Below the pieces are notes generated by a model, which was not told the origin of the DNA, did no database searches, and saw nothing but the letters and a program-made list of their open reading frames with translations. A stretch of 64,000 bases of DNA from Cytobacillus kochii (GTDB taxonomy: Bacteria; Bacillota; Bacilli; Bacillales; Cytobacillaceae), in the NCBI RefSeq assembly GCF_020171845.1, contig NZ_JAIVAM010000002.1, forward strand, positions 248,001 to 312,000, in the 5' to 3' direction. Position 1 is the stretch's first letter. Every line of letters starts with the position of its first letter. Shown piece by piece: positions 20,537 through 36,542 of this stretch. Both the position numbers and the translations under genes were made by a program.

Positions 20537-20578
20537 AACCCGCAATTTCAGATTATACCTGAAAGTTTGCGGGTTTTT
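20537..20578 (+). terminator. Terminator before repeat array A
   Basis: AACCCGCAA-TTTCAG pairs with CTGAAA-G-TTTGCGGGTT, followed by TTTT. It ends the two-component/methyltransferase unit. Confidence 0.9.
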
Positions 20579-20684
20579 TCGTTCTTGGATACTCGGCGAT
20601 TGAGCTGTGTGCTTTGGAAGAGTATTATGTCAAAACGAGATAGAACTGAAAGCCGAGGATAAGACGTTAGCGCGTCATTAAGAA

Positions 20685-21245
20685 GGAAAAGCGGAATCGA
20701 ACGCTTCGCAAAAGGTATTTGTACATCATTCAAAAGGAAAAGCGGAAATGAACGCTTCGCAAAAGCTATTTGCAAGTCATTCAAAAGGAAAAGCAGAAAT
20801 GAACGCTTTGCAAAAGGTATTTGCAAGTCATTCAAAAGGAAAAGCGGAATCGAACGCTTCGCAAAAGCTGTTTGCAAGTCATTCGAAAGGAAAAGCGGAA
20901 ATGAACGCTTCGCAAAAGGTATTTGCAAGTCATTCAGAAGGAAAAGCGGAAATGAACGCTTCGCAAAAGCTGTTTGCAAGTCATTCAGAAGGAAAAGCGG
21001 AAATGAACGCTTCGCAAAAGGTATTTGTACATCATTCAAAAGGAAAAGCGGAAATGAACGCTTCGCAAAAGGTATTTGCAAGTCATTCAAAAGGAAAAGC
21101 GGAAATGAACGCTTCGCAAAAGTTGTTTGCAAGTCATTCAGAAGGAAAAGCGGAAATGAATGCTTCGCAAAAGCCGTTTGCAAGTCATTCAAAAGGAAAA
21201 ACAGAAACGAAAGCTTCGCAAAAGGTGTTAGAGAGTACGTTACCA
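20685..21245. repeat. Tandem array A: eleven 51-bp repeats
   Basis: Copies start every 51 bases at 20685, 20736, 20787, 20838, 20889, 20940, 20991, 21042, 21093, 21144 and 21195 (the last degraded). Each begins GGAAAAGCGGAAATGAACGC and contains AAGCG-N8-CGCTT, able to form a small hairpin, then GCAAAAG and TTTGCAAGTCATTC. Because 51 is 17 codons, frames stay open on both strands (20748-21293 plus, 20548-21246 minus); neither has a convincing ribosome binding site and I do not call them genes. The flanks (20580-20684, 21246-21311) hold no gene; they share ATAAGACG/CGTCTTAT at 20659-20666 and 21304-21311. Confidence 0.92.
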
Positions 21246-21311
21246 AAACCGAAAACGAGAATTAACCCAAGGTGGAACCAACCGCGGAGATAAAAGAAAT
21301 AACCGTCTTAT

Positions 21312-21341
21312 GGAATAAACATACATTTATGTTTCATACTA
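21312..21341 (+). promoter_or_regulatory. Forespore (SigG/SigF-type) promoter of coat genes
   Basis: GGAATA (21312-21317), a 17-base spacer and CATACTA (21335-21341) match SigG consensus TGMATA-N17/18-CATAMTA with one mismatch. The start would be about 20 bases upstream of the coat gene, leaving its ribosome binding site intact. Confidence 0.7.
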
Positions 21342-21368
21342 ACAAAAAGGAGTATGGGAGGTGGCGTA

Positions 21369-21572
21369 ATGTATCAGTTAACGACGAAAGAATTGTCGGC
21401 AATTGAAGATGAAATTCGTGCGGAGGAAATAACAGCGAAGACGTTTAACTGGTGTGCTTCTCTTTGTGAGGACGAAGAAGTAAGGGTATCATTGGAAAAA
21501 TTAGCAGAGGAACATCAGTTAAGGATTGCTGAATTATCAACCTATTTCAACCGAGCGAGGAAATTACATTAA
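21369..21572 (+). CDS. Small ferritin-like spore coat-associated protein
   Basis: 67 residues from the ATG at 21369 behind GGGAGGTGG. All helical, with EDEIRAEEITAKTFNWCASL and LAEEHQLRIAEL reading as two helices of a ferritin-like bundle, similar to the short partners found beside CotF-family coat genes. It is 20 bases ahead of a CotF-like gene and shares its forespore-type promoter. Coat localisation is inferred from the neighbour and promoter. Confidence 0.65.
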   Translation: MYQLTTKELSAIEDEIRAEEITAKTFNWCASLCEDEEVRVSLEKLAEEHQLRIAELSTYFNRARKLH

Positions 21573-21592
21573 TTTTAATGGAGGTGGTTTCA

Positions 21593-21886
21593 TTGCCGAA
21601 TAATATCAATGGTCGTGGATTAACAGAACGAGAAATGATGCAATTATGTTTAGAATTAGCAAAAGGAAGAGTTCCCGCTATTAGCCACACATTAATGGAA
21701 ACTACTCATGATGAATTGAGAGATATTTATGAGGGGTGCTTAAAAACAAGTGCAGAAGCCCAAAGGGGAATCTTTCAATTAATGGAAAAGAAGGGATGGT
21801 ATGAAACGCAACTCGCTACAGTAGAAGAAATCGAAAATGTACAAAACTTCATGCAAAATAATTTAAACCCATCTCCCTCCGAATAA
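21593..21886 (+). CDS. CotF-family spore coat protein
   Basis: 97 residues from a TTG start at 21593, the best fit to GGAGGTGG; an ATG at 21578 overlaps that site. The segment LTEREMMQLCLELAKGRVPA and the helical remainder resemble the C-terminal half of CotF and the YraD/YraF/YraG coat proteins of B. subtilis. It would be placed in the spore coat or cortex-coat interface late in sporulation. Its stop codon lies inside the terminator hairpin. Confidence 0.75.
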   Translation: MPNNINGRGLTEREMMQLCLELAKGRVPAISHTLMETTHDELRDIYEGCLKTSAEAQRGIFQLMEKKGWYETQLATVEEIENVQNFMQNNLNPSPSE

Positions 21887-21903
21887 TATTCGGAGGTTTT
21901 TAT
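21876..21903 (+). terminator. Terminator of coat gene pair
   Basis: CCTCCG pairs with CGGAGG, extended by AAT/ATT pairing, then TTTTTA. The stop codon of the CotF-like gene lies in the loop side of the hairpin. Confidence 0.85.
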
Positions 21904-22005
21904 TTCTTTTTTTACATAAAAAATTCTTTTGACATATGCCTGACACATTCACTGATTAAATTATAAAACATAGGCAAGCCAATCAAATGAAAGAAGGGAT
22001 TTTTA

Positions 22006-23244
22006 ATGAATGAATTCAATCATTTTGAAGATAATCGCGAGTATCAAGCGAAGCGAAAAAATACTTGGTTTAAAAGTGTAACAATGACTGTAGCAAGTGG
22101 AGTAATGGGCTCAGCCCTAACTTTGGGTGCAATCAATTATTTTCCTAATGAAATAAAACAGTCTACGGAGGTTGTACAGGAGCAATCAGAAACTAATGTT
22201 TCCAAAGTTAATGCTGAAACGGTATCAACTACGAGTGATGGGTCGATTGCAGATATAGTAGAAAAAGCCTCTAAAGCAATAGTGGGCGTTGTCAACATGC
22301 AAGAGCAACAAGCAAACCCTTTTAGTCATTCCACAGGCAACACACAAAGTGGGGAAGCAGTTGAAAGTGGTACTGGCTCTGGTGTTATTTTCAAGCAAAC
22401 AGACAACGAAACGTATATTGTGACAAACAATCACGTCATTGAAGGAGCATCTAATATTCAGGTTTCTCTGCATAATGGTGAAAAGCTTCAAGCTGAACTT
22501 GTTGGAACAGATTCATTAACAGATATTGCCGTGTTAAAAGTGAATGAAAAAGTAGACGCTGAAGTCCTTTCCTTTACTGATTCTTCAAACCTTCGTGCCG
22601 GCGATCAAGTGTTAGCGATAGGCAATCCACTAGGCTTAGATTTATCCAGAACAGTAACTCAAGGAATTGTAAGTGCAGTGGATCGATCAATTGAAGTCTC
22701 TACCTCAGCCGGAGAATGGGATTTAAATGTCATTCAAACAGATGCAGCAATAAACCCTGGGAATAGTGGTGGAGCACTTATTGACTCAAATGGGAATTTG
22801 GTTGGTATTAATAGTTTGAAAATAGCTGATAGTGGCGTAGAAGGGTTAGGCTTTGCCATTCCAAGTAATGATGTCGAGAGCATTATTGATCAGTTAATGA
22901 AGGATGGTAAAATCATTCGACCTTATCTAGGTGTTGGTTTGATGGACTTAAATCAAGTACCGCAGTTTTATCAAGAACAATTACCGAAAAATGTAGAAGA
23001 AGGTGCCATTATTACCCAAGTAGAGGAAGGTTCGACAGCAGAAAAGGCGGGGTTGCAAGCTGAGGATATTTTAGTTTCAATTGGTGATCAAACTATTACA
23101 ACCGCTAATGACTTAAAAGAATCTCTTTATAAAGATCTTTCGATTGGCGATAAGGTTAAAATAGGTTTTTATCGTGATGGGGAAAAGAAAACAGTAGAAG
23201 TAACGTTACAAGGAAATGGGGAAAAGCAAGTTGAAACAGAATAA
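22006..23244 (+). CDS. HtrA/DegP-family membrane-anchored serine protease
   Basis: 412 residues. A cytoplasmic N-terminus (1-22) and a signal anchor (about 24-46) are followed by a linker and a trypsin-like domain with His143 (TNNHVIEG), Asp173 (LTDIAVLKV) and Ser254 (NPGNSGGALID), then a C-terminal PDZ domain (about 305-400) with YLGVGLMDL. The protease degrades misfolded exported proteins outside the membrane; B. subtilis HtrA/HtrB are induced by CssRS under secretion stress. First gene of a tightly spaced five-gene unit. It overlaps the foldase gene. Confidence 0.92.
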   Translation: MNEFNHFEDNREYQAKRKNTWFKSVTMTVASGVMGSALTLGAINYFPNEIKQSTEVVQEQSETNVSKVNAETVSTTSDGSIADIVEKASKAIVGVVNMQEQQANPFSHSTGNTQSGEAVESGTGSGVIFKQTDNETYIVTNNHVIEGASNIQVSLHNGEKLQAELVGTDSLTDIAVLKVNEKVDAEVLSFTDSSNLRAGDQVLAIGNPLGLDLSRTVTQGIVSAVDRSIEVSTSAGEWDLNVIQTDAAINPGNSGGALIDSNGNLVGINSLKIADSGVEGLGFAIPSNDVESIIDQLMKDGKIIRPYLGVGLMDLNQVPQFYQEQLPKNVEEGAIITQVEEGSTAEKAGLQAEDILVSIGDQTITTANDLKESLYKDLSIGDKVKIGFYRDGEKKTVEVTLQGNGEKQVETE

Positions 23245-24097
23245 ATTATTGATTGCCACTGGTTGTATGTTTGTTGCTGCTGTCGTAGTTGCTGTTGTTT
23301 TATACAATAGTCATTCAAAAGCAGCGACAGTCAATGGAGAAAATATAAGCAAAGATGATTTGAATGAAGCGTTAATGTCTCAATATGGCACTTCTGTTCT
23401 AGATACATTAATATCTGATCAAATTGTTCTTCAAGAAATGGATAAGGAGAAGGTAACTGTAACTGAAGAAGAAGTGGCTGAAGAAATGGATGCCTATATG
23501 GAGCAATATGGGGGAGAAGAGGCATTTAAAGAAGTGTTAGATGAAAACGGGGTATCCTATGACTCTATAGAACATAATATCGAAATCTATTTAGGCTCAA
23601 AGAAATTGATCACACCAGGAATTGAAATTACTGATGATGAGATGGAAACATACTTTGAAGAAAATAAAGAAAGTTATGCTCAGGCAGAAGAGATAGAAGC
23701 AAGTCATATCCTAGTGGAAGATGAGGATACTGCCAAAGAAGTAAAACAAAAACTCGATGATGGTGACGATTTCTCAGAATTAGCAGCTTCTTATTCAACC
23801 GATGATTCAAATAAAGATAATGGCGGTGAATTGGGGTATTTTGGAGAAGGTGAAATGGTAGAAGCATTTGAAGAAGTGGCTTTTGCTATGGAAGTGGACG
23901 AAGTGAGTGATCCAGTTAAAACAGATTATGGTTATCACATTATAAAAGTAACAGATCATAAAGAAGCGAAAGAAGCCAATTACGAAGAAGTGAAAGAAGA
24001 AATAAAAGAGACTTTAATAGAGTCTAAGCTTTCAAGTGAATATACGGAATGGCTAAATGAGAAGTACGAAGAATATGAGATTAAAACGTATATCTAA
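23231..24097 (+). CDS. Membrane-anchored parvulin-type peptidyl-prolyl isomerase
   Basis: 288 residues from the TTG at 23231 (behind TGGGGAAAAG), overlapping htrA by 14 bases; an ATG at 23216 is in frame but badly spaced. An N-terminal membrane anchor (about 5-26) is followed by a SurA/PrsA-like N-domain and a parvulin domain (about 155-245) with ASHILVEDE, GGELGYFGEGEMV and YGYHIIKVT. The tail is strongly acidic and helical. It should fold exported proteins outside the membrane, like PrsA or YacD. There is no convincing lipobox (IATGC is followed by further hydrophobic residues). Confidence 0.88.
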   Translation: MKQNKLLIATGCMFVAAVVVAVVLYNSHSKAATVNGENISKDDLNEALMSQYGTSVLDTLISDQIVLQEMDKEKVTVTEEEVAEEMDAYMEQYGGEEAFKEVLDENGVSYDSIEHNIEIYLGSKKLITPGIEITDDEMETYFEENKESYAQAEEIEASHILVEDEDTAKEVKQKLDDGDDFSELAASYSTDDSNKDNGGELGYFGEGEMVEAFEEVAFAMEVDEVSDPVKTDYGYHIIKVTDHKEAKEANYEEVKEEIKETLIESKLSSEYTEWLNEKYEEYEIKTYI

Positions 24098-24112
24098 AGG
24101 ATGTGTTCGATT

Positions 24113-24793
24113 TTGAAAGGAAGGAAAGAGCTTAAACATGAAATCTCAAAAATGGATGGGGTTTTACTTAAAAAACGCTTAAGTTACTTTATGAATACGG
24201 ACCCTCATTCAAATGGGAGTGGGGGATATAATGTTCGTAGCGTATACTTTGATAACTTTGAAAACAAAGCTTTAATAGAAAAAAAAGAAGGCTATATGAA
24301 CCGTGCAAAATATAGGGTTCGCACATATAATGATGATTTTGACACAATTAATCTAGAAAAGAAAAGTAAGAAGAATAATCTGACCTATAAAGAGAAATGT
24401 AGGATGACAGCAGAAGAATATGAGCTTATTAGAGCTGGCGATATTTTATGGATGGAGAATGATACCAGACCATTAATGAGGGAACTTTTCCATAACATGG
24501 TTCGTTATCAATTGAAGCCAGTAACGGTTGTCGATTATGAGAGGGATGTTTATATCTATCCATATGGTAATGTCCGTTTAACTTTTGATAGCAATATTCG
24601 TACAAGCTTAAGGAATCCTGACTTTTTAAATACAACAATGCCTATGGTACCATCCCTTGATCATCAATTGATGATACTTGAAGTCAAGTATGATGAATAC
24701 ATTCCCGATGTCATTAAGATGCTTCTACAAATGCTTGATCGCAGGAAGGGTACGTATTCAAAATATCAATTAAGTAGAATGTATGGATTATAG
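24113..24793 (+). CDS. VTC-domain polyphosphate polymerase-like protein
   Basis: 226 residues from the TTG at 24113 behind AAAGGATG. It begins KGRKELKHEISKMD, typical for bacterial VTC domains, and carries basic strands (RSVYFDNFENKALIEKKEGY, RAKYRVRTYND, NLEKKSKKNN) that line the tunnel of CYTH/VTC enzymes, plus ILEVKYDE near the end. The yeast VTC4 catalytic domain makes polyphosphate from ATP; bacterial VTC proteins beside DUF4956 and CotH are assumed to be similar but little studied. No membrane segment. It sits 15 bases after the foldase and 21 before the DUF4956 gene. Confidence 0.85.
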   Translation: MKGRKELKHEISKMDGVLLKKRLSYFMNTDPHSNGSGGYNVRSVYFDNFENKALIEKKEGYMNRAKYRVRTYNDDFDTINLEKKSKKNNLTYKEKCRMTAEEYELIRAGDILWMENDTRPLMRELFHNMVRYQLKPVTVVDYERDVYIYPYGNVRLTFDSNIRTSLRNPDFLNTTMPMVPSLDHQLMILEVKYDEYIPDVIKMLLQMLDRRKGTYSKYQLSRMYGL

Positions 24794-24814
24794 TGAGAAT
24801 AGGAGAAGAGAAGA

Positions 24815-25498
24815 ATGGAAAGTGTGAATTTTTCAGATATATTTAAATCAAGCTTTTTAGAAAAAACGGAGAGTTTTTCAATTATAGACTCCCTGATTGG
24901 TTTATTCATGGCCTTTGCGATTGGACTATTTATTTATGCAGTTTATAAGAAGACATTTTCAGGTGTGATTTATTCACATACTTTTAATATATCCCTCATC
25001 ATAATGACCATGGCTACAGCATTAATTATTATGGGAATTTCCTCAAATGTCCTGTTATCACTAGGTATGGTTGGTGCTTTGTCCATTGTCCGTTTTCGTA
25101 CACCAATTAAAGACCCAATGGATCTTGTTTATCTTTTTTGGGCGATTGTTGCCGGTATTCTTTGCGGAGCAGGCTTTATTCCATTAGTGATTATTGGTAG
25201 TTTATTGATCGGTCTCGTACTTGTATTGTTCGTTAACAAAATTACGATTCAGAACCCTTACTTACTCATTGTAAAATATGGGGGTGAAGGTGTGGAATCT
25301 CAACTTGAATCGCTATTATCTAAGGTCACTAATAAACATATGATGAAATCCAAATCTATCATGAATGGTAATCAAGTAGAAATTACTTATGAAGTAAGAA
25401 TGATAAAAGATCAATCTCAAGTGGTAAATAATGTAACGAACCTTAGCGGGGTAGAATCGGCTGTAATGTTAAGCTATGACGGTAATTTCACAGCGTAA
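24815..25498 (+). CDS. DUF4956 family membrane protein
   Basis: 227 residues. About four or five membrane helices in residues 25-145, including the conserved VGALSIVRFRTPIKDPMDL loop that marks DUF4956 (distant MgtC-like fold), then a cytoplasmic C-terminal domain of about 80 residues with ferredoxin-like pattern. Function unknown. It regularly lies next to VTC-domain genes, and may be the membrane partner of the polymerase, for instance in polyphosphate export or anchoring; that is inference. AGGAGAAGAG precedes the ATG. Confidence 0.88.
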   Translation: MESVNFSDIFKSSFLEKTESFSIIDSLIGLFMAFAIGLFIYAVYKKTFSGVIYSHTFNISLIIMTMATALIIMGISSNVLLSLGMVGALSIVRFRTPIKDPMDLVYLFWAIVAGILCGAGFIPLVIIGSLLIGLVLVLFVNKITIQNPYLLIVKYGGEGVESQLESLLSKVTNKHMMKSKSIMNGNQVEITYEVRMIKDQSQVVNNVTNLSGVESAVMLSYDGNFTA

Positions 25499-25517
25499 AT
25501 GAACAGGAGAAAGGAAT

Positions 25518-27257
25518 ATGATTAAACGCAAATATGTCGTTCTCGTTTTTCTAATGTTGGCTGTTTTATTTGTTGGTATTCTATTCTTTCTACCTCATTT
25601 ACTTCCAAAAGGGGAAGTAGTTGATCACTCTTACGTTTCAAAAGTATTCAATAAAAATAAAGTGACTCAAGTTGAGTTAACCCTTGCAGAAGATGATTGG
25701 GAAGATGTATTAGAGAATCCGACGGAAGAAGAATATAAGATGGCAAATGTGACGATAAATGGAACTAAATTGAACCAAGTAGCTGTTCGGACAAAGGGGA
25801 ATTCTTCCCTTTCTTCAGTTGCTAGAATGGAAGATTCTGATCGTTATAGCTTCAAAATAGATTTTGATTACTATACTGATCAAACTTTATATGGATTGAA
25901 AAAGTTGAATCTAAATAACCAATTTAGTGATGCTACGCAAATGCGAGAATATTTATCGTATCAATTAATGGAGAATATGGGGTTACCCACACCTGCTTAT
26001 TCTTATATGTATGTGATCATTAATGGTCAGGAATGGGGATTATATTTAGGTGTTGAACAAGTAGACGAAGTGATGCTTGGAAGATATTTTGAAAATCCAT
26101 ATGGATCATTGTACAAGCCAGATGGTACAAATAGTGACTTGAAATGGGTAAGTGATGATATTGATGATTACTCAGGTTTAAACTTGAAATCAGAGGAGCA
26201 AGATGAACAAGCGTTAATAGATATGTTAGATAGTATCAATAATGGTGGCGATTTAGAAGAAACCTTAGATGTGGATCAAGTATTACGATATTTTGCAGTA
26301 AATACGGCTGTTGTTAGCATGGATAGTTACCAAGGACAAATGAAGCATAACTATTATTTATATGAAAATGATGGTAAGTTCTCAGTTATTCCGTGGGACT
26401 ATAATATGGCATTTGGTGGCTTTGGAGTTGGTATGGCATTTGGTGGACAAATGAATGGAGATTTCTCAGCTGCTGAAAAAAACCAAGGTGAAGACAAACA
26501 AGACCAAGCACCACAAGGCGGAATGGACAACTTCACCGGTGGCATCGGAAATAGTGATTTATTGAGTGAAGATACGATTAATTTCAGTATATCTGAACCT
26601 ATAGCTGGTACTACCTTAGAAGAAAGACCGTTACTTAATGCACTATTATCTAATGAAGAATATAAAAAACAATATGAAGCGTATCTTAAACAGATAGCCG
26701 AAGAATATATGACAAAAGAGTCTTACCAAAATACAACTACACAAATTAGTGCATTGATTCTTCCTTATGTCGAACAGGATCCTACCAAGTTTTATACAAC
26801 AGAAGCATTTCTCGAAGCGGTGCAGGGTGATGAGAGTTTACCAGCATTTGCTGAGGCGAGATCAGAATCGATACTTGCTCAGCTCTCAGGTGAATTAGAA
26901 GTAGAATCACAAGCTTCTGAAGTTAATAACATGTTCCCTGGCCGAGCGGGTGGTGATGACCAGGAAGGTCAAGAAGGAGGAGAAGGATTTCAACCGCCAA
27001 ATGGAAATAAAGGAAACGCTGATGGTGAAATGCCTGAACGTCCGCAAAGCAACGGAGATTTTCCGCAGGGAGGAAATTTTGAGCCACCTGAAGGGTTTGA
27101 AGGTATGCCTGGTGGTGAGGGACATGGACAAGGACAAGGAGAGCAACCTAGTACAGTAAAGTTCAAAACGTCAGCAATCATCTTGTATGTGGGCCTAATC
27201 ACAGCTTTATTAGGAACAACTTTTTTTATCTTCCTGTTTAAACGAAGAGGAAGATAA
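25518..27257 (+). CDS. CotH-family protein kinase, membrane-anchored
   Basis: 579 residues. Helices at about 5-25 and 551-572 (tail KRRGR) predict that the body is outside the membrane. The CotH domain (about 40-440) shows VRTKGNSSLSS, LNLNNQF with MREYLSYQL, a GLYLGVEQVDE segment and FSVIPWDYNMAFGG, the likely metal-binding motif. A Gly/Pro/Gln-rich linker (about 465-540) precedes the last helix. CotH of B. subtilis phosphorylates coat proteins; membrane forms near VTC genes are not characterised. The last gene of the unit; AACAGGAGAAAGG lies ahead of the start. Confidence 0.88.
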   Translation: MIKRKYVVLVFLMLAVLFVGILFFLPHLLPKGEVVDHSYVSKVFNKNKVTQVELTLAEDDWEDVLENPTEEEYKMANVTINGTKLNQVAVRTKGNSSLSSVARMEDSDRYSFKIDFDYYTDQTLYGLKKLNLNNQFSDATQMREYLSYQLMENMGLPTPAYSYMYVIINGQEWGLYLGVEQVDEVMLGRYFENPYGSLYKPDGTNSDLKWVSDDIDDYSGLNLKSEEQDEQALIDMLDSINNGGDLEETLDVDQVLRYFAVNTAVVSMDSYQGQMKHNYYLYENDGKFSVIPWDYNMAFGGFGVGMAFGGQMNGDFSAAEKNQGEDKQDQAPQGGMDNFTGGIGNSDLLSEDTINFSISEPIAGTTLEERPLLNALLSNEEYKKQYEAYLKQIAEEYMTKESYQNTTTQISALILPYVEQDPTKFYTTEAFLEAVQGDESLPAFAEARSESILAQLSGELEVESQASEVNNMFPGRAGGDDQEGQEGGEGFQPPNGNKGNADGEMPERPQSNGDFPQGGNFEPPEGFEGMPGGEGHGQGQGEQPSTVKFKTSAIILYVGLITALLGTTFFIFLFKRRGR

Positions 27258-27284
27258 GTAAATGCATAAATAATCAAAATACTA

Positions 27285-27313
27285 TTGACAATTAATTCAA
27301 TACCCGATAAAAT
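27285..27313 (+). promoter_or_regulatory. Sigma-A promoter of the S-box transcript
   Basis: TTGACA (27285-27290), exactly 17 bases, TAAAAT (27308-27313). It lies about 40 bases upstream of the riboswitch aptamer. Confidence 0.85.
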
Positions 27314-27349
27314 TTCCTTTATCAAAGCAACACAATAAATTGAATATGA

Positions 27350-27456
27350 TTCTTATCGAGAGAGACTGAGGGACCAGGCCCGAAGATGTCCGGCAACCTC
27401 CTTTTAAAGGGAAGGTGCTAAATCCTGCAGAATGATTTCATTCTGAAAGATAAGGT
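27350..27456 (+). promoter_or_regulatory. SAM-I (S-box) riboswitch
   Basis: Canonical S-box core: CGAGAGAGACTGAGGGACC, then GGCCCGAAGATGTCCGGCAA, AAGGTGCTAAATCCTGCAG and GAAAGATAAGG. The closing stem P1 pairs CTTATC (27352-27357) with GATAAG (27449-27454). On SAM binding the leader should fold to the terminator at 27476, switching off metNI expression when methionine/SAM is plentiful. Confidence 0.96.
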
Positions 27457-27475
27457 TTAATAACAATCATTTGTT

Positions 27476-27508
27476 GAGCCTCTTTCAAAGTGAAAGAGGC
27501 TCATTTTA
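27476..27508 (+). terminator. Riboswitch-controlled terminator
   Basis: Perfect twelve-base arms GAGCCTCTTTCA and TGAAAGAGGCTC with a 3-base loop, followed by ATTTTATG, 32 bases ahead of metN. Confidence 0.88.
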
Positions 27509-27539
27509 TGTTGTAGAGGATTTAGGGAGGGTGAGGTAA

Positions 27540-28553
27540 ATGATTGAAGTCAATCATTTAGTGAAAATTTATAAAAGCAAAAAGAAGCAAGTAATAGGCG
27601 TTGACAATGTATCTCTTTCTATTAAAGAAGGGGAAATATACGGGATTATTGGCTATAGTGGAGCAGGGAAAAGTTCTTTATTACGCTGTCTAAATTTATT
27701 GGAGAGACCGACATCTGGTGAAGTGAAAATTGATGGCGTTGATTTAACGACTTTAACAAGTAAAGAATTAAGAAAAGCAAGGCAGAAGATAGGTATGATT
27801 TTTCAGCATTTTTATTTAGCGAGTTCGAAGACAGTGTATGAGAATATTGCCTTTGCTTTAAAAGCGGCAGGTAAAAGTCCGAAAGAAATAGATATCAGGG
27901 TGAAAGAACTATTAGAATTAGTGGGTTTAGCAGATAAAATTCATCAGTATCCCACGCAATTAAGTGGTGGTCAAAAGCAAAGGGTAGGAATAGCCAGAGC
28001 ACTTGCTAATGATCCAAAGGTTTTACTTTGCGATGAAGCCACTTCAGCCCTAGACCCTAAAACAACAAAATCAATCCTGAACTTATTAAAATCAATTAAT
28101 AAAAAGCTGGGATTAACCATCGTACTTATCACTCATGAGATGGAAGTAGTCAAAGAGATTTGTCATAGGTTAGCTGTTATGCAAGATGGAAAGGTCATAG
28201 AAGAGGGACCGGTGTATGATATATTTGCGAATCCAATTGAACCACTTACAAGAGATTTTATTCAGAGTATTCTTCAATTTGACTTACCACAACAATTGAT
28301 TGAAAACAGGAAGGGAACAATCATTAAAATCCAATTTAAAGGTGCAATAGCAGAAGAATCTGTTGTTTCTGAACTGTTCCAAACATTCAAAGTAAAAGGA
28401 AATATTCTTCACGGCAAGATTGAATATATTCAAGAAGTACCTCTTGGTATTTTTATTATGGAGTTAACTGGTGAAATACCTGAAATAGAAAGAGCTATAC
28501 AATATATTCAAGATAGAACACAGAATTTGGAGGTAGTTGAACATGTTGCTTGA
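27540..28553 (+). CDS. metN: Methionine ABC transporter ATPase MetN
   Basis: 337 residues. ABC domain (1-240): Walker A GYSGAGKSS, signature LSGGQKQRVGIARAL, Walker B VLLCDEATSALD, switch His in LITHEM. A C-terminal NIL regulatory domain (about 265-335) is the allosteric methionine site known from MetN. It energises D/L-methionine import with MetI. It lies behind an S-box leader and is repressed when SAM is abundant. It overlaps metI by 11 bases. AGGGAGGGTGAGG precedes the ATG. Confidence 0.95.
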   Translation: MIEVNHLVKIYKSKKKQVIGVDNVSLSIKEGEIYGIIGYSGAGKSSLLRCLNLLERPTSGEVKIDGVDLTTLTSKELRKARQKIGMIFQHFYLASSKTVYENIAFALKAAGKSPKEIDIRVKELLELVGLADKIHQYPTQLSGGQKQRVGIARALANDPKVLLCDEATSALDPKTTKSILNLLKSINKKLGLTIVLITHEMEVVKEICHRLAVMQDGKVIEEGPVYDIFANPIEPLTRDFIQSILQFDLPQQLIENRKGTIIKIQFKGAIAEESVVSELFQTFKVKGNILHGKIEYIQEVPLGIFIMELTGEIPEIERAIQYIQDRTQNLEVVEHVA

Positions 28554-29208
28554 GTCCATTCAGGCGTTACTTCCTGAACTAAATACAGCTGTATTACAAA
28601 CGATTTATATGGTCGCCATTTCTTTAGTTGCGGCACTTATACTAGGTCTTCCACTAGGCATCTTATTATTCGTTACAGACGAAGGATTGTTCTTAAAGAA
28701 TAGATTTGTAAATGCCGTTACTGGTTGGATTGTCAATTTGATCCGCTCTATTCCTTATATTATTTTGTTAGTAGCTCTATTGCCGTTAACAAAATTAATT
28801 GCAGGTTCAACTATTGGTCCTACAGCGGCTTCTGTTTCATTATCTGTAGCAGCGATTCCATTTTTTGCAAGATTGGTTGAAACATCCTTAAGAGAAATAG
28901 ATAAAGGAGTCATTGAATCTGCAGTAGCAGTAGGCGCTTCCCCTTGGATGATAATTAAGGAAATCCTTGTCCCAGAAGCGAAACCTGGAATTGTTCAAGG
29001 TTTAACGATTACGACTATTAGTTTAATCGGTTATTCCGCAATGGCAGGTATTATTGGCGGCGGGGGTATTGGTGATTTAGCGATACGTTTCGGTTACTAT
29101 CGCTATGATAATGTCATTATGATTACGACAGTCATTGTCCTCGTTGTATTGGTGCAAATTATTCAAATTGGTGGGGATAAATTAACTAAATATGTAGATA
29201 AGAGATAA
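28543..29208 (+). CDS. metI: Methionine ABC transporter permease MetI
   Basis: 221 residues, five membrane helices, with the EAA loop VEAAVAVGASPWMIIKEIL-like segment at about 125-150 (here ESAVAVGASPWMIIKEILVP), which docks on MetN. ATG 28543 behind TTGGAGG is chosen over the TTG at 28537. A terminator closes the transcript 17 bases downstream. The binding lipoprotein MetQ, normally the third gene of this operon, is not present in the window. Confidence 0.94.
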   Translation: MLLESIQALLPELNTAVLQTIYMVAISLVAALILGLPLGILLFVTDEGLFLKNRFVNAVTGWIVNLIRSIPYIILLVALLPLTKLIAGSTIGPTAASVSLSVAAIPFFARLVETSLREIDKGVIESAVAVGASPWMIIKEILVPEAKPGIVQGLTITTISLIGYSAMAGIIGGGGIGDLAIRFGYYRYDNVIMITTVIVLVVLVQIIQIGGDKLTKYVDKR

Positions 29209-29224
29209 TAAATTCAAATAATAG

Positions 29225-29262
29225 ATATAGTAAAGGGGAATGGAGCCTTTACTATATTTATT
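29225..29262 (+). terminator. Terminator of metNI
   Basis: Perfect twelve-base arms ATATAGTAAAGG and CCTTTACTATAT with a 9-base loop, then TTATTTATT. Confidence 0.85.
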
Positions 29263-29319
29263 TATCCTAATGAATGAGTATTAAAGAGAAGATGGAAACA
29301 GACGGGGAGGAAGGATTCT

Positions 29320-30537
29320 ATGAGCACGATAACAGCTTCATCTAAGGAAGCGTATTTAGCTGAACAACTCGCTCGACCATTTATTAAGACGGCTCAACAA
29401 GAAGAATTATTTCATAAAGCTACGATATTAGCAGAAGGATTTAGTAAGAGGGCGCAAAAGATTGATGAAAATGCAGAGTTCCCTTTTGAGAATTTTGAAG
29501 AATTAAAACAATCAAATTATTTAAGTTTGACGATTCCGAAAGAATATGGTGGTAAAGAGATTTCCTTATATGAATATTTCTTAATACAAGAAAGGATTGC
29601 CCAAGGTGATGCATCTACGGCTTTATGTATTGGTTGGCACTTAGGTGTTATCTATGATTTAAGGGTTAAACGGAAATGGAAGGAAGAACAGTTTGCCAAG
29701 TTATGCGAAACGGTTATCAAAGATAATAAATTGATTAACCGCTGTGCAACAGAGGCAGCAACCGGCAGTCCAACCCGTGGTGGACTACCAGCGACTACTG
29801 CGGTGAAAAAAGGAACACAATGGATCTTGAATGGAAGAAAATCTTTTGCTTCGATGGCACCAGGCTTAGATTTTTCTCTTATTACAGCAACGATAGAAGC
29901 TTCAGGAGAAATTGGTATATTCCTTGTACCGCATGAGAACCCTGGTTTAAAAGTGGAATCAAATTGGAATATGCTAGGGATGCGGGGCACACGTAGTGAC
30001 GATCTCGTGTTAGAGAATGTAATTGTAGAAGAAACAGCATTAGTTGAAATAGAAGGTGTTCATTTTTATGCGATTCCTAATGCATGGTTACTACATTCAG
30101 CTGCTTGCTTTATTGGCGTTGCTATTGCAGCTCGGAACTATGCCATTATTTTTGCTTCTGAATATCAACCTAATAGCCTGCCTGGTCCAATTAGTGAAGT
30201 ACCAGAAGTGCAACGTAAAATTGGGGAAATGGAACTCGAGCTACTAAAAGCGCGAACAGCACTCTATTCTATAGCGGATCGCTGGGATAATGAACCGAAT
30301 AAACGAGGAGAATTAGGAGCTGAACTTGGAGCCATCAAACACCTTGTTTCTAACAGTGCTAATAAAGTGGTCGATTGGGCAATGAGAATAGTTGGTGCAC
30401 AAAGCTTGCAACAAAGAAATCCTTTGCAGCGTTATTACCGTGATGTGCGAGCTGCGCTCCATAATCCGCCTATGGATGATGTAGTAATCACAAATTTAGC
30501 GAAAAAAGCACTATCATTTCAAAATAACAATGATTAA
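29320..30537 (+). CDS. Acyl-CoA dehydrogenase-family flavoprotein (DszC/SfnB-like)
   Basis: 405 residues. N-terminal helical domain (about 40-150), a beta domain with RCATEAATGSPTRGG and LNGRKSFASMAPGLD (flavin contacts), and a C-terminal four-helix domain ending QRYYRDVRAALHNPP, the place where DszC/SfnB-type FMN monooxygenases show a similar motif. Such proteins in S-box or sulfur-starvation loci release sulfur from organic compounds, so a sulfur role is likely but a true acyl-CoA dehydrogenase cannot be excluded. GGGGAGGAAGG precedes the ATG. A terminator separates it from metNI. Confidence 0.75.
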   Translation: MSTITASSKEAYLAEQLARPFIKTAQQEELFHKATILAEGFSKRAQKIDENAEFPFENFEELKQSNYLSLTIPKEYGGKEISLYEYFLIQERIAQGDASTALCIGWHLGVIYDLRVKRKWKEEQFAKLCETVIKDNKLINRCATEAATGSPTRGGLPATTAVKKGTQWILNGRKSFASMAPGLDFSLITATIEASGEIGIFLVPHENPGLKVESNWNMLGMRGTRSDDLVLENVIVEETALVEIEGVHFYAIPNAWLLHSAACFIGVAIAARNYAIIFASEYQPNSLPGPISEVPEVQRKIGEMELELLKARTALYSIADRWDNEPNKRGELGAELGAIKHLVSNSANKVVDWAMRIVGAQSLQQRNPLQRYYRDVRAALHNPPMDDVVITNLAKKALSFQNNND

Positions 30538-30559
30538 TAGAACTATTTAAATCACATGC

Positions 30560-30590
30560 CCCTCTTCCTATTTGGAGAGGGTTATTATTT
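30560..30590 (+). terminator. Probable terminator of flavoprotein gene
   Basis: CCCTCT pairs with AGAGGG, extended inward, followed by TTATTATTT. The T-run is interrupted. Confidence 0.55.
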
Positions 30591-30744
30591 GTATAGGCAT
30601 ATAGATTAGCTCCAATTTTTATTTATTTATCAGGCTTCAAAATATTTCGTTTTTCATAATTCTTTTTTTAAAGGCTTCTTTCCTTTTAAAAATGAATTAT
30701 ACTAGTAGATGTGAAAATGAATAACGTAGAAAGTGGTGTACAGA

Positions 30745-32055
30745 TTGAAAAAGTTTATTTCATCAATGACAATGGTTTCTTCCGTACAATGGGTCTTTTT
30801 TATCTTTGCCAATACTGTTGTCATTCCGATTTCCATTGCCAATGTATTTGAGCTATCAAGTGAAACGATGGCAATGATGATTAGAGCATCACTCATACTT
30901 ACGGGTATTACTTGTATACTACAAGGATGGAAAGGTCATCGTTTCCCGATTATGGAAGGGCATTCAGGGTTATTATGGGGAATTATCCTTAATCTTGGGC
31001 TTTCAGCACAAGCGCTTAATATTGGATTAGAACGTATTGGTGGTGGGATTGTTACTGGTATTGTTTTAGCTAGTCTAGTGACCATTTTGCTGATTGCTTG
31101 TGGGGGTTTTTCATTATTGCAATCCATCTTTAGTCCGATGGTAATGACTGTATATTTATTTTTGCTTACTTTTCAATTAATGTTTATCTTCTTTGAAGGT
31201 ATGTTAAAGATGACTTCGACTGGCGTCATTGACATAGGTATAAGTCTTTATTCTGTAGTACTCGCGCTGATCGTCGCTACATTAAAAATGAAAGGTAATC
31301 AACTTATTAGCAATTTTTCTATTTTAATTGGCCTTTTAGGGGGCTGGCTCGGTTATGTCCTATTGTTTGGTAATGATGGGGCTGGTATGACAACATCTGC
31401 GCCTTTCCAACTTTTTCCGTTAGGGGCTCCTAATCTTGAAATGGGAATTGTCGTAGTCACGTTTGTTGCCGTATTATTAAACTTAAGTAATACATTTGCT
31501 TCTATTAACGCTGCAGAAAAACTTCTACAAAGGAGAGCAGCCAAAAAAGAGTTTAAAGGCTCAATGATCATTACTTCAATTTCTACCATTATTGGATCCG
31601 GTTTCGGACTTGTTCCCTATACACCATTTACATCAACGATTGGTTTCTTGCAAAGTACGAGAATTTATGAAAGAAAGCCATTCTTTATCGGTGGTGCTTT
31701 ACTTACGATCATTGGTATTGTTCCAATTTTAGGCTCATTTCTTTCAATGTTACCTGTTACCGTTGGAAACGCAGTCTTGTTTGTTGCGTATATGCAATTA
31801 TTTGGTACTGCATTCAGTAGTTTAAATGGAAAGACGTTTAATTCTAATACGATATTTAGGTTAGCAGCACCTGTATTAATTGGTATTAGTATTATGAATA
31901 TTTCACCTGCTATCTTTTCGGAATTACCTGTCCTCATTCAACCATTTTTTGCAAATGGGTTAATAATGGGTGTTATTATCTCAATTATATTAGAAAAAGC
32001 AGTGAACTGGGTTAAATACGAAGATCAACCTATTAAAAGAGGAAAAGCCAGTTGA
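30745..32055 (+). CDS. NCS2-family purine/pyrimidine permease
   Basis: 436 residues from the TTG at 30745; a GTG at 30733 overlaps the purine-rich site AAAGTGGTG. About 12-14 membrane helices. Segments FPIMEGHSGLLWG and GLVPYTPFTSTIGFLQSTRI correspond to the substrate helices of uracil/xanthine permeases; the overall form resembles B. subtilis YwdJ. It would import a nucleobase with a proton. The substrate is not resolved because the usual xanthine or uracil motifs are altered. No purine-regulatory site was recognised upstream. Confidence 0.8.
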   Translation: MKKFISSMTMVSSVQWVFFIFANTVVIPISIANVFELSSETMAMMIRASLILTGITCILQGWKGHRFPIMEGHSGLLWGIILNLGLSAQALNIGLERIGGGIVTGIVLASLVTILLIACGGFSLLQSIFSPMVMTVYLFLLTFQLMFIFFEGMLKMTSTGVIDIGISLYSVVLALIVATLKMKGNQLISNFSILIGLLGGWLGYVLLFGNDGAGMTTSAPFQLFPLGAPNLEMGIVVVTFVAVLLNLSNTFASINAAEKLLQRRAAKKEFKGSMIITSISTIIGSGFGLVPYTPFTSTIGFLQSTRIYERKPFFIGGALLTIIGIVPILGSFLSMLPVTVGNAVLFVAYMQLFGTAFSSLNGKTFNSNTIFRLAAPVLIGISIMNISPAIFSELPVLIQPFFANGLIMGVIISIILEKAVNWVKYEDQPIKRGKAS

Positions 32056-32165
32056 TGTTTCCTTCTTTGGTATAAGACATATTCTTGCACGTTTCTTAAC
32101 TAGGCAAATGAAAATAAAACACGTAAGATAGAATAGTAGCGAATCAAAAAAAGGGGATTTTTGTG

Positions 32166-32810
32166 ATGGAAGGAATTACACTGAGTTCATTGCTAGATGT
32201 AATTGGGGAATTATTTTCAGATGAAGTGTCAATTGTAGTTTCAAATACAACAGAGTATATTTACTATCGTCCAAGTAAACGTGTTGACTTGAAAATTCGG
32301 CCAGGGGATATTGTAAAAGAAGGAAGTATTGCTGATAAAGCGCTTAAGGCTGAACAAAAGGTGTCAGAGTTTATTAATAGGGATGTATTTGGTGTACCTT
32401 ATCACGGGATGGCTGTTCCATTTAAAAATAATGGGAAAATTGAAGGTTGTGTGACTGCTATTTTTCCAACATTGACAGAGGGGAAATCTGTCGTTACATT
32501 AAAGACAAGCGATGGTTGGGTACCAGTTCCATTTAATGAAGTATATTTCTTGGAAGCTAAAGATCGTAAAACTCATGTTCATGCTATTTACTCTTCTGGT
32601 ACGCATAAAAATACGCTACAGGAGTTTGAGTATATTTTACCAAAGGAAAACTTTATTCGCTGTCACAGGTCATTCTTGGTGAATGTTAATCAAATACAAG
32701 AGATATTTCCTGACTCTCATTCTACTTTTTTATTATTAATGAGAAATGGTGCAAAAGTGCCTGTAAGTCAATCCTATTCTAGTTATTTTCGTAAGTTGCT
32801 CGGCTTCTAA
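32166..32810 (+). CDS. LytTR-domain transcriptional regulator with N-terminal sensor domain
   Basis: 214 residues from the ATG at 32166 behind AAAAAGGGGA. No receiver domain. The N-terminal half (about 1-105) is PAS-like in pattern (IVVSNTTEYIYYRPSKRVDL, GVPYHGMAVPFKNNGKIEG). The C-terminal LytTR domain (about 115-214) has VYFLEAKDRKTHVH, FIRCHRSFLVNVNQI and VPVSQSY. It probably senses a small molecule and activates the adjacent CoA-transferase gene, a pairing I recall from other Bacillus; regulation is inferred from adjacency. Confidence 0.85.
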   Translation: MEGITLSSLLDVIGELFSDEVSIVVSNTTEYIYYRPSKRVDLKIRPGDIVKEGSIADKALKAEQKVSEFINRDVFGVPYHGMAVPFKNNGKIEGCVTAIFPTLTEGKSVVTLKTSDGWVPVPFNEVYFLEAKDRKTHVHAIYSSGTHKNTLQEFEYILPKENFIRCHRSFLVNVNQIQEIFPDSHSTFLLLMRNGAKVPVSQSYSSYFRKLLGF

Positions 32811-32867
32811 ATCAAAGGCATAAATGGATGAATAACCATTTAACTCAATATTTTCTGATTATCTGAA

Positions 32868-32900
32868 AAAATCTGCTGGCTTATCGGCAGATTTTGCTGT
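32868..32900 (+). terminator. Terminator of LytTR gene
   Basis: AAAATCTGC pairs with GCAGATTTT with a 10-base loop, then GCTGTTTT. Confidence 0.75.
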
Positions 32901-33001
32901 TTTATCAAAATTTTTCATTAATTATACTAAAAAAATAATCCCATTCTGATTTATTAGTAAAATAGTTATTAAGTATTCTTTACAGAAAGAGGGATGGGAA
33001 T

Positions 33002-34513
33002 ATGGATAATAAACTTGGGAGAGTTAAAATTCAGACACTTCAGAACAATATCATGACTGCAGAAGGGGCTGCAGAAATGATTAAAGATGGCATGACATTG
33101 GGGTTAAGTGGATTTACTCGTGCGGGAGATGTGAAAGCGGTTCCTGTAGCATTAGCAGACAGAGCAAAAACAGAAGATTTTAAAGTCAATGTGTATACAG
33201 GTGCATCTCTTGGTTCGGATGTTGATAAGTTGTTTGCGGAAGCTGGTATTTTAAATAAGAGATTACCATTTCAAGCTGACTCAACAATGAGAAAAGGCAT
33301 TAATAAAGGGGACTTCTTATTTGTTGATCAACATTTATCTCACACAGCAGAACTCATCCGTTCAGGGGTATTACATGTAGATGTAGCTATTTTGGAAGCG
33401 GTTTCGATTGAAGAAGACGGAACAATTGTACCTACAACATCAGTTGGTAACTCACTGTCTTTTGCCGAACATGCCCAAAGTGTAATTGTTGAAATTAATA
33501 TGGCCCAATTACCATCGCTAAAAGGGTTACATGATATTTATAGTCCAGATAAACAAGGTGAGCGTGGTCCAATTCCCATTACAAATGTAGCCGATCGTGT
33601 GGGTGAGATAGGTATTAAAGTGAATCCGGAGAAAATTAAAGCGATTGTGTTTACTGAACAAGGCGATTCACCATCAACTATTGTTCAGCCAGATGAGGAA
33701 ACAGTTATGATGGCGCAACATTTAACCAATTTTCTTCGCAATGAAATTGCAGAAGGTAGATTAGATGAAAAACTTGCCCCATTACAATCAGGCATTGGTT
33801 CGGTAGCAAATGCTGTTTTGCATGGCATGATTGACTCTGAATTCACAGACTTAGAAGTGTATTCAGAAGTACTTCAAGATGCAGTATTTGATTTAATTGA
33901 TGCTGGGAAAGTAAAGTTTGCGTCAGGTTGTTCCATTACACTTTCAGAAGAAAAGATGAAAGAAGTGTTTGCTCATTTCGATCAATATCGCGATAAGTTA
34001 TTGTTAAGACCACAAGAAATCACTAATCATCCGGAATTAATTCGCCGTTTAGGATTAATCTCTATCAATACTGCATTAGAACTAGATATCTATGGTAATG
34101 TGAATTCTACTCATGTTCAAGGAACTAAGATGATGAATGGTATTGGTGGATCAGGGGATTTTGCAAGAAACGCAAGGTTAGCTATATTCGTGACAAAATC
34201 AATTGCTAAAGATGGTAAAGTTTCAAGTATTGTACCTTTTGCTTCACATATTGATCATACAGAACATGATGTTGACGTTATTGTCACAGAACAAGGCTAC
34301 GCAGATTTAAGGGGATTGGCTCCTCGTGAACGAGTTGAGCTAATCATTGAAAATTGTGCGCATCCGTTATACAAGGATCAACTGAGAGATTACTATTATG
34401 AAGCATTATCAGCAGGTGGCCAAACCCCACATATTCTAGCAAAAGCTTTTTCTTGGCACATTAACTATGTGGAGAATGGCACAATGTTAGCTTCCGAGAA
34501 AGTGGATGTATAA
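33002..34513 (+). CDS. Succinyl-CoA:acetate CoA-transferase / acetyl-CoA hydrolase family
   Basis: 503 residues, class I CoA-transferase. The catalytic glutamate is Glu289 in LEVYSEVLQD, preceded by GIGSVANAVL; the oxyanion and CoA regions are VQGTKMMNGIGGSGDF and VTEQGYADLRGLAPRER. Homologues such as AarC of Acetobacter convert acetate and succinyl-CoA to acetyl-CoA and succinate. The role would be acetate use or a bypass of succinyl-CoA synthetase. AGAGGGATGGG precedes the ATG. The LytTR gene upstream is its likely regulator. Confidence 0.9.
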   Translation: MDNKLGRVKIQTLQNNIMTAEGAAEMIKDGMTLGLSGFTRAGDVKAVPVALADRAKTEDFKVNVYTGASLGSDVDKLFAEAGILNKRLPFQADSTMRKGINKGDFLFVDQHLSHTAELIRSGVLHVDVAILEAVSIEEDGTIVPTTSVGNSLSFAEHAQSVIVEINMAQLPSLKGLHDIYSPDKQGERGPIPITNVADRVGEIGIKVNPEKIKAIVFTEQGDSPSTIVQPDEETVMMAQHLTNFLRNEIAEGRLDEKLAPLQSGIGSVANAVLHGMIDSEFTDLEVYSEVLQDAVFDLIDAGKVKFASGCSITLSEEKMKEVFAHFDQYRDKLLLRPQEITNHPELIRRLGLISINTALELDIYGNVNSTHVQGTKMMNGIGGSGDFARNARLAIFVTKSIAKDGKVSSIVPFASHIDHTEHDVDVIVTEQGYADLRGLAPRERVELIIENCAHPLYKDQLRDYYYEALSAGGQTPHILAKAFSWHINYVENGTMLASEKVDV

Positions 34514-34545
34514 AGGACAAATACAAATTATAGACGAGTTAGAAA

Positions 34546-34579
34546 AGTAACCTAAGTTAATACTCAGGTTGCTTTTTGT
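34546..34579 (+). terminator. Terminator of CoA-transferase gene
   Basis: AGTAACCT pairs with AGGTTGCT (one G-U) with a 12-base loop, then TTTTTGT. It separates the gene from repeat array B. Confidence 0.8.
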
Positions 34580-34618
34580 CGTGTCTCACCATTGCCTTTG
34601 TCTATATATACTGGAAAG

Positions 34619-35477
34619 GAAAGAGACTGAGTCGGAAACGAGTCAAAAAAGCGAGCCCAGGCAAAGTTTGATTGGATTCAAGCAGAAACGAGTCAAAAAA
34701 GGGAGCCCGGGCAAAAATTTGATTGGATTCAAGCAGAAACGAGTCAAAAAAGCGAGCCCGGGCAAAAATTTGATTGGATTCAAGCGGAAACGAGTCAAAA
34801 AAGCGAGCCCGAGTAAAAATTTGAACGGATACAAACGGGAACGAGTCAAAAAAGCGGGCCCGGGCAAAAATTTGGTTGGATTCAAACGGAAACGAGTCAA
34901 AAAAGCGAGCCCGCGGCAAAATTTGATTGGATTCAAACGGAAACGAGTCAAAAAAGCGAGTCCGCGGCAAAATTTGATTGGATTCAAGCAGAAACGAGTC
35001 AAAAAAGCGGGCCCGGGCAAAAGTTTGATTGGATTTAAGCAGAAACGAGTCAAAAAAGGGAGCCCGGGCAAAAGTTTGATTGGATTCAAGCAGAAACGAG
35101 TCAAAAAAGCGAGCCCGGGCAAAAATTTGATTGGATACAAACGGAAACGAGTCAAAAAAGGGAGCCCGGGCAAAAATTTGGTTGGATTCAAACGGAAACG
35201 AGTCAAAAAAAGCGAGCCCGGGTAAAAATTTGGTTGGATTCAAGCGGAAATGAGTCAAAAAAGCGGGCCCAGACAAAAGTTTGATTGGATACAAACGGAA
35301 ACGAGTCAAAAAAAGCGGCCCGGGTAAAAATTTGGTTGGATTCAAGCGGAAATGAGTCAAAAAAGCGGGCCCGGGCAAGAATTTGATTGGATTCAAGCGG
35401 AAACGAGTCTAAAAAAGGGAGCCCGGGCAAAAATTTGATTAAATATTCAAGGGTAATTGCCTCACTCAGTCCCTTTC
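34619..35477. repeat. Tandem array B: sixteen 51-bp repeats with terminal inverted repeats
   Basis: Copies start at 34640 and then nearly every 51 bases to 35405 (first unit 50, one unit 52, last truncated near 35440). Consensus starts GAGTCAAAAAAGCGAGCCCG, has the palindrome GCCCGGGC in most copies (CCGCGGC in two), then AAAAATTTGATTGGATTCAA and GCGGAAAC. Frames are open on both strands as a result of the 17-codon period; none has a start signal I trust. The array is bordered by GAAAGAGACTGAGT (34619-34632) and ACTCAGTCCCTTTC (35464-35477), inverted, 13 of 14 matching; the right arm covers the end of dctB. Confidence 0.93.
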
Positions 35478-36542
35478 ATCAGTTGTTTCGTTTTCGTATT
35501 TATCTCTGAGCTTTAAAGCTTTGTCAATCAGCGTACTGCCAATTTCATTTTTAAATTGAGTGTAGACTGGATCTAGGACTTTTTTCCAACTGTTTTTTTC
35601 TTCATTGGTAAGTTCGTGAATGTGGATTGAACTCACTTTTCTTATTTCTTTGAGTTGATTTTCATTCATCTGGACAGCTTGTTTTCGATTCCATTGCGTG
35701 ACTTCAGACATAGCCTCAGTTAAGATTCTTTTTGTTTCACTTGATTGCTTATTCCAAACATTCTCATTCATTAAGACGGCATAACCGAGATAGCCATGAT
35801 TGCTTATTGTCATATACTTTTGTAAGTTATAAAACTTTTTCGAATAAATATTAGAGATAGTGTTCTCTTCGCCGTCTACTTTCCCACTATCTAACAAGTC
35901 GTATGTAGAATTAAAAGATTCTTTTACTGAATTTGCATTCAATTCAAGAAATTGTGATGAGAGGACATCACTTTGCATGATTCGGAATGTTTGTCCAGCT
36001 ATATCTTGCGGATAAATAATTGGACCATCATTGGATGTGAATTGCTTAAATCCATTACTCCAATGAGCTAAACCGATGAGTCCATCCCCCTTTACACTAG
36101 ATAATAGTGTTTGCCCGATAAACCCGTCTAACCCTTCGTTAATGGCTTCATAGGAAGGGAAAATAAACGGCAAATCGAGTACCCCCCATGCAGGGTTTAA
36201 CATGCCAAGTTTTGATGTGGAGGGAGCAATAATATCAACATTGCCTTCTTGAACCGCTCGTATTTCTTCTATATCAGAGTAGAGAGAGCCGTTAGAGAAG
36301 ACAACAATTTTAATATTTCCGTCTGATTTTTCAGCAACAATTTCAGCAAATTTATCAGCGGCCATTCCCTTTGGCGTATTATTGGAGACAACATGACTAA
36401 ACGTTAAAACGATTTGATCATTGAGCCCTTCTTGCTCATCATCATAAGGAAGGTCTTCTGTGAGAATATATTGTTTAAAACTAAAAAAAAGTGCAAGCGT
36501 TATAATAATGGTTAATAGTATGATGCTATATTTACTTTTCAT
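35466..36542 (-). CDS. dctB: TRAP-type C4-dicarboxylate-binding protein DctB
   Basis: 358 residues from the ATG at 36542 behind GAGGTG; a GTG at 36551 also in frame overlaps that site. A signal anchor (about 4-22) leads to a DctP-type binding domain with LTFSHVVSNNTPKGMAADKFAEI, the conserved Arg in GQTFRIMQSD, and VDGEENTISN. In B. subtilis DctB is a co-sensor that works with the kinase DctS rather than a transporter subunit; no TRAP membrane genes are adjacent here. Divergent from dctS. Its last codons and stop lie in the right inverted repeat of array B. Confidence 0.87.
   Translation of the reverse strand: MKSKYSIILLTIIITLALFFSFKQYILTEDLPYDDEQEGLNDQIVLTFSHVVSNNTPKGMAADKFAEIVAEKSDGNIKIVVFSNGSLYSDIEEIRAVQEGNVDIIAPSTSKLGMLNPAWGVLDLPFIFPSYEAINEGLDGFIGQTLLSSVKGDGLIGLAHWSNGFKQFTSNDGPIIYPQDIAGQTFRIMQSDVLSSQFLELNANSVKESFNSTYDLLDSGKVDGEENTISNIYSKKFYNLQKYMTISNHGYLGYAVLMNENVWNKQSSETKRILTEAMSEVTQWNRKQAVQMNENQLKEIRKVSSIHIHELTNEEKNSWKKVLDPVYTQFKNEIGSTLIDKALKLRDKYENETTDERD

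Follow-up and report, generated by a model that had tools for sequence, protein, structure and literature searches.

A class of intergenic tandem arrays with units of about five helical turns in Cytobacillus kochii and other Bacillaceae

What is held constant when tandem arrays of different sequence share one repeat period? The question is raised by a stretch of 64,000 nucleotides of Cytobacillus kochii (contig NZ_JAIVAM010000002.1, here C2:248001-312000, of a 4.97-Mb genome in 46 contigs), called the window below, which contains two arrays of period 51 bp. Tandem Repeats Finder (TRF) recovered both as the first-pass annotation of this DNA had described them: array 1 (20674..21226, forward strand) has 10.8 copies of a 51-bp unit at a match of 90%, and array 2 (34633..35440, forward strand) has 15.8 copies of a 51-bp unit at 89%. 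All 10 full units of array 1 are 51 bp long, and the 15 full units of array 2 comprise 10 of 51 bp, two of 50 bp and three of 52 bp. The annotation had also held that the two units carry common submotifs in the same order and belong to one diverged family. This similarity is no better than that of shuffled units: aligned locally in circular form, the two units score at best 20.0, whereas dinucleotide shuffles average 18.4 and 664 of 2000 reach or exceed the observed score. The exact string AAGCGGAAAYGA has 15 copies genome-wide, 11 of them within arrays 1 and 2. By sequence comparison, the arrays represent two different dispersed families, I and II, whose consensuses align below the shuffle mean (1736 of 2000 shuffles at least equal). 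In the family alignments, the unit of family I (array 1) shows the blocks GAG.GC...GCAAA and GCAAGTC.CTCA, and that of family II (array 2) shows GAAACG.GTCAAAAA and TTTGATTGGATT.

BLAST searches with array 1 or array 2 found dozens more places in the genome. TRF was run on fetched stretches amounting to 750,332 bases, mostly picked around these places, and detected 29 arrays with a 51-bp period and one with a 204-bp period; the further period-51 arrays whose presence the annotation had made its own test therefore exist. In 13 stretches (260 kb) picked without regard to arrays, L103, a further period-51 array, and an array of period 75 were found. The 29 arrays analyzed for units and strand, with an array on contig C7 (L118) left out, include 19 of family I (match of at least 33/51) and eight of family II (at least 31). 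L088:2898 and L103 fit neither family reference better than shuffled units, and a later clustering places L088:2898 with family I. Two weak BLAST places, C9:21038 and C15:51764 (L082, L086), hold no TRF array scoring 100 or more. The period-204 array (L091:6018-6781, contig C21) is a higher-order repeat, 94% alike, of four strongly diverged 51-bp subunits, and the period is kept within this one array though its subunits have diverged. Four of the 29 arrays lie at contig ends (C5 end, C6 start, C17 end, C18 start), which makes arrays probable break points of this assembly, and such arrays seem to break short-read assemblies.

The census of other Bacillaceae-type genomes covered 1.68 Mb of loci, with TRF rows below a score of 120 dropped. 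A period of 50-53 bp was found in 31 of the 46 array rows (29 of 44 once duplicates are removed; two 52-bp rows, L127 and L198, are the same place of one genome). Twenty-six of these rows are at 52 bp, two at 51, one at 50 and two at 53, and the remaining 15 have periods of 20-48 and 99-327 bp. The 50-53-bp units of all genomes fall into 24 sequence clusters, and the relatives' arrays, as judged from this clustering, comprise at least some twenty unrelated unit sequences. The arrays are a class of Bacillaceae with a unit of about five helical turns, which has its mode at 52 bp in relatives and measures 51 bp in C. kochii and in its sister, Cytobacillus stercorigallinarum Sa5YUA1 (G035; one flanking protein, 98% identity). 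What remains of the one-family proposal is a class with a constrained period, without the single family and its ordered submotifs. A first clustering had joined family II with a TTCATAG family of the relatives, which leaves the largest cluster of mixed origin in doubt. That family II descends directly from this family (51 from 52 bp) is unproven, because even the best of 50 pairs of units are equaled by 2 of 500 shuffles. The units of L285:1869 and L189:43 look related (0 of 500 shuffles). In controls from beyond the family, no array scoring 100 or more lay in 29 ortholog loci at class or order level (128,123 bases). Class-level stretches of 80 kb, together with 50 kb of E. coli K-12, gave one weak period-21 array and none at 50-53 bp; both controls are small.

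Unit length varies less than the measured indels predict. Exactly 51 bp was found for 375 of the 406 full units in the arrays of this genome, where 119 indels were counted against 1934 substitutions (ratio 0.062). If all the 50-53-bp units of the different genomes had one ancestor, neutral drift at the measured ratio predicts a standard deviation of unit length of at least 1.24; the observed value is 0.64. Simulations of this drift reached the observed value in 4 of 5000 runs at 0.5 substitutions per site and in 0 of 5000 at 1.0 or more. In 32 of the 37 units that have an insertion as well as a deletion, the two cancel out, which is suggestive only, because many of them share descent and the aligner can invent such pairs.

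A length of 51 bp also corresponds to 17 codons, and the annotation had named this option. Coding repeats of 17 residues would agree with the divisibility of 51 by 3 and with several arrays being open in one or more frames. However, the variation within arrays shows no codon phase (29 arrays, lowest p 0.024), one array of this genome (L068) has stops in all three forward frames, and a general 17-codon reading is excluded because the 52-bp period of the relatives shifts the frame at every unit. Coding repeats are thus ruled out as a general explanation by the absent codon-phase signal and the relatives' period, and we regard them as highly improbable altogether.

If a unit of 51 bp makes five helical turns, its A/T content should have power at the fifth harmonic. 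Twelve harmonics were evaluated by three measures, for all units in a first pass and then for 24 largely independent units; this set leaves out seven related units, two family II units of the sister and all units of this genome except L103. In the 24 units, the A/T power at harmonic 5 is 2.20, compared with 1.00 ± 0.21 in shuffles (0 of 300 as high), and 0 of 5000 control bootstraps from 3633 non-array intergenic 52-mers reach it. The next-highest A/T harmonic is the eighth (z 2.3), and AA/TT at harmonic 5 gives a z of 4.9 (3 of 5000). The power is 2.16 without the doubtful unit L285:1869, and both sampling batches are raised (2.39, n = 14; 1.72, n = 8). Family II of this genome is also phased at harmonic 5 (A/T 2.04, AA/TT 4.71). 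A second array class in relatives has a core of about 20-21 bp, or two helical turns, often with a 39-42-bp higher order (L129:3973-4186, L175:19858-19970, L187:8625-8722, L284:6034-7114, L285:15687-15842, L287:13712-14094 and L318:3923-4020), and the top A/T period is 10.0-10.6 bp in four of the eight non-52 arrays examined. Phased A-tracts and a curvature-related periodicity of prokaryotic genomes have been described (PMC3372288, PMC3940949). The present arrays resemble them in having A/T runs spaced about 10-11 bp and differ in that these are packed in whole-turn tandem units, well above the non-array intergenic DNA of the same genomes. The annotation's view that the helical period is constrained more than the sequence is supported by the unit length, steadier than drift predicts, together with one A/T peak per turn in the 24 units.

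We tentatively read the arrays as helically phased, bendable elements of DNA architecture between transcription units, kept by geometry rather than by sequence, and give this reading a probability of roughly 0.4. A unit of whole turns would present the same helix face again and again, so that curvature or anisotropic bendability would extend over hundreds of base pairs. Such DNA could hold the apex of a plectoneme or serve as a wrapping site for gyrase or a nucleoid protein, and neighbouring transcription units would thereby be separated in their supercoiling. Copies and sequences would turn over through recombination within arrays, with selection mainly removing out-of-register units. A wider form of this proposal, which we hold to be doubtful, is a geometry-conserved bacterial satellite whose letters are freely replaced and whose length is locked to whole turns (five, or two in the second class), with A/T on one face. 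Its ruler would be set by a trans-acting machine that wraps or copies DNA, at 51 bp for C. kochii and the sister species and at 52 bp for most of these Bacillaceae. The data suggest that DNA shape rather than spelling is what is kept.

Several results weigh against the architectural reading. Family I, with 19 arrays, is unphased (A/T 0.70, AA/TT 1.04), so the annotation's idea of phased bending, which the 24-unit set and family II favour, has no direct support for array 1. For all 30 units of this genome, harmonics 7 and 9 exceed harmonic 5, and the window's two units have a harmonic-5 power of 1.30 and 1.26, ranking fourth and fifth of 12. The harmonic result is without replication on fresh arrays because 23 held-out loci (90,660 bases) gave no 50-53-bp array and just one of period 41. 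The preference for gene 3' ends reported below has the same direction in the sampled relatives alone, where it is not significant (p 0.06, 0.13). A further point of this kind is the position-specific constraint within families, which bears on another explanation.

Columns with little variation among the copies of an array are also the conserved ones when arrays are compared, with r = 0.77 for family I and 0.79 for family II; 0 of 5000 permutations match these values, and circular shifts reach at most 0.41 and 0.45, respectively. Because the within-array and between-array columns agree, the family sequences are not free and carry motif-like blocks, which suggests that the sequence itself is under demand too. 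The architectural reading is weakest for family I, where there is room for a sequence-specific binding protein. Each unit might then carry sites for such a protein, helically in register, like a centromere or silencer array. The blocks of family I form imperfect inverted arms (10 of 15 pairs), and the relatives' units often contain a hairpin-forming inverted repeat, beyond shuffles (mean z -2.0, 16 of 29 below -1.5). The dyad is nevertheless marginal in family I (82 of 2000) and not significant in family II (504 of 2000), the units of this genome are not enriched in hairpins over shuffles (mean z -0.39, 3 of 30 below -1.5), and the column correlation could also come from site-specific mutability. 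Moreover, one sequence-specific protein cannot read the arrays, because several unrelated unit sequences coexist in one genome. sopC of F is a plasmid centromere array; the present arrays share with this type tandem units some tens of bp long that contain dyads and differ from it in being dispersed over the chromosome with many unrelated units. The array 2 DNA had no match in plasmids. Operator arrays are on balance improbable. Other known types were searched for as well: no CRISPR-type unique spacers occur in the 29 arrays, whose whole units repeat (mean column entropy 0.07-0.73 bits), and no Rfam match lies on the arrays in window positions 18000-37000 at E values up to 0.5 or, at gathering thresholds, in seven loci of this genome.

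The turnover of the arrays is visible in the comparison with the sister genome. Array 2 is orthologous there, with 10.0 copies against 15.8 here. On the compared contig, one array is common to both genomes, three are present only here (218369, 268674, which is array 1, and 340985), and two are confined to the sister; one of these two places still has about one unit in this genome. A family I query of 36 genomes of the genus, including this one, matched nothing beyond this genome and a single stretch of 32 bp in the sister, and a family II query of 21 genomes without the sister matched this genome only. The exact family I pattern had 0 matches in a database of genome contigs, a search that possibly left out near relatives. 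With head-to-tail units and a copy number that varies between relatives, the arrays qualify as variable-number tandem repeats (VNTRs), that is, tandem intergenic minisatellites. The mycobacterial interspersed repetitive units (MIRU) are intergenic minisatellites of the VNTR type. Like them, the present arrays are tandem and intergenic and differ in copy number between close relatives (array 2); unlike them, they have one period across many unrelated sequences and genera, with A/T phased to the helix.

This turnover would also suit a neutral satellite copied preferentially in whole turns. Selfish or neutral minisatellites without function could be produced if copying or looping duplicates whole turns, two or five, and unequal exchange keeps the register. 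The fast turnover of arrays relative to the sister, the copy-number difference of array 2, the dispersal of family I here against a single 32-bp match there, and the second period class near 20-21 bp would all fit. By itself, however, such a mutational ruler predicts no A/T phasing within the unit, no position-specific constraint common to copies within and between arrays, and neither the 3'-end placement nor the replication polarity described below. No known enzyme of this kind was identified. The Y1 transposase family (IS200/RAYT type) is linked to repetitive extragenic palindromic (REP) elements. A search for the Y1/RAYT transposase PF01797 gave 0 matches in this genome and was positive in 5 of 14 control genomes, and RAYT-type spread of the arrays is ruled out by its absence. 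We consider the selfish or neutral explanation rather unlikely.

Arrays were found in 22 of 293 convergent, 25 of 819 co-directional and 4 of 295 divergent intergenic spaces. Divergent spaces hold fewer than the others (4/295 vs 47/1112, Fisher p 0.02), and convergent and co-directional spaces also differ (p 0.002); this test pools loci of this genome chosen around arrays with sampled loci and uses a crude gene caller. About 10 of the 29 arrays lie directly after the terminator of the upstream gene, as judged by eye without a scan. The arrays favour gene 3' ends, a placement like that of REP elements and bacterial interspersed mosaic elements (BIME). One paper describes REP/BIME as repeated, mainly extragenic elements that prefer spaces between convergent and co-directional genes (PMC3733652); REPs are there 20-40-bp palindromes with conserved end tags, placed at 3' ends, with hypothesised roles in supercoiling, gyrase being bound in E. 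coli. Stem-loops also prefer convergent spaces, according to another paper (PMC1590033). The likeness extends to the relatives' units, which often contain inverted repeats. In contrast to REP/BIME, the unit sequences here differ from array to array with a period fixed near 52, and there is no single palindrome family: this genome has at least two unrelated dispersed families plus outliers, and the palindromic units of the relatives (16 of 29) are mostly mutually unrelated.

The arrays are also polar. The purine-rich strand lies on the side of positive local GC skew in 27 of the 29 arrays (binomial p 1.6e-6), which answers the annotation's call for a check of strand bias: orientation follows local GC skew and, with it, the replication strand. 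In convergent spaces, 11 of 12 arrays follow the skew, and these are informative because neighbour transcription cannot decide orientation there. The exceptions are C9:184005, with near-zero skew, and C1:76381 (L066:5382-5729), the one family I array clearly reversed against the local skew, whose flanking genes also run the other way. G exceeds C on the array strand in 28 of the 29. In the relatives and the sister, the purine strand agrees with the skew in 18 of 25 arrays, and in 5 of 8 convergent ones.

This polarity would suit a polar antisense terminator, in which the RNA opposing the fork, pyrimidine-rich and with C over G, acts as a Rho-utilisation-like or weak intrinsic signal and the arrays stop head-on transcripts from convergent neighbours. 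Rho signals are pyrimidine-rich with C over G. The strand composition and the skew in this genome, including the convergent spaces, are consistent with such a role, and five weak terminator-like matches lie on the minus strand of array 1. The agreement in relatives is lower, as given above, the arrays of this genome are about as often co-directional (11) as convergent (12), the region has just 13 terminator-like matches compared with 8.6 ± 3.1 in shuffles, and a fixed period is not needed for termination. Antisense termination is therefore quite improbable as the explanation.

No description of such an array class was found in the literature, which is weak evidence of absence, as coverage of subscription journals was thin. 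Sequence is the usual yardstick of conservation. Homology searches would miss arrays that keep their period and helical phase through a turnover of their letters. If the architectural reading holds, such arrays could show the places at which the chromosome of a bacterium is bent, wrapped or divided topologically, and many of them per genome in one bacterial family would offer a natural, directly testable system for selection on DNA shape.

In the window, array 1 follows a gene of the LCM-family methyltransferases (Pfam PF04072; 19642..20496, forward strand). A consensus scan placed a terminator-like hairpin with a T-run about 100 bp before the array (20557..20574, forward strand), which is weak alone given the shuffle counts for the region. 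Between array 1 and a Coat F domain gene (21578..21886, forward strand) lies a 72-aa open reading frame without a Pfam match (21354-21572). Only residues 2-169 of the 284 in the methyltransferase (19642-20496) have a match in the sister (C37:65545-66048), where array 1 is absent. Array 2 lies between a gene of the acetyl-CoA hydrolase/transferase family (33002..34513, forward strand) and a converging gene for a DctP-type solute-binding protein (35466..36551, reverse strand). It is enclosed by an inverted repeat with the left arm GAAAGAGACTGAGT (34619..34632, forward strand) and the right arm ACTCAGTCCCTTTC (35464..35477, forward strand), 13 of whose 14 bases are complementary; the arms are visible in the sister locus too, as if the array formed the loop of a hairpin common to both genomes. 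A 99-bp tandem repeat family occurs at two distant places of one relative, G046 (L271:5465-5730, L272:1786-1987). Finally, a SAM riboswitch (RF00162, 90 bits) at 27350-27456 of the window is unrelated to the arrays.

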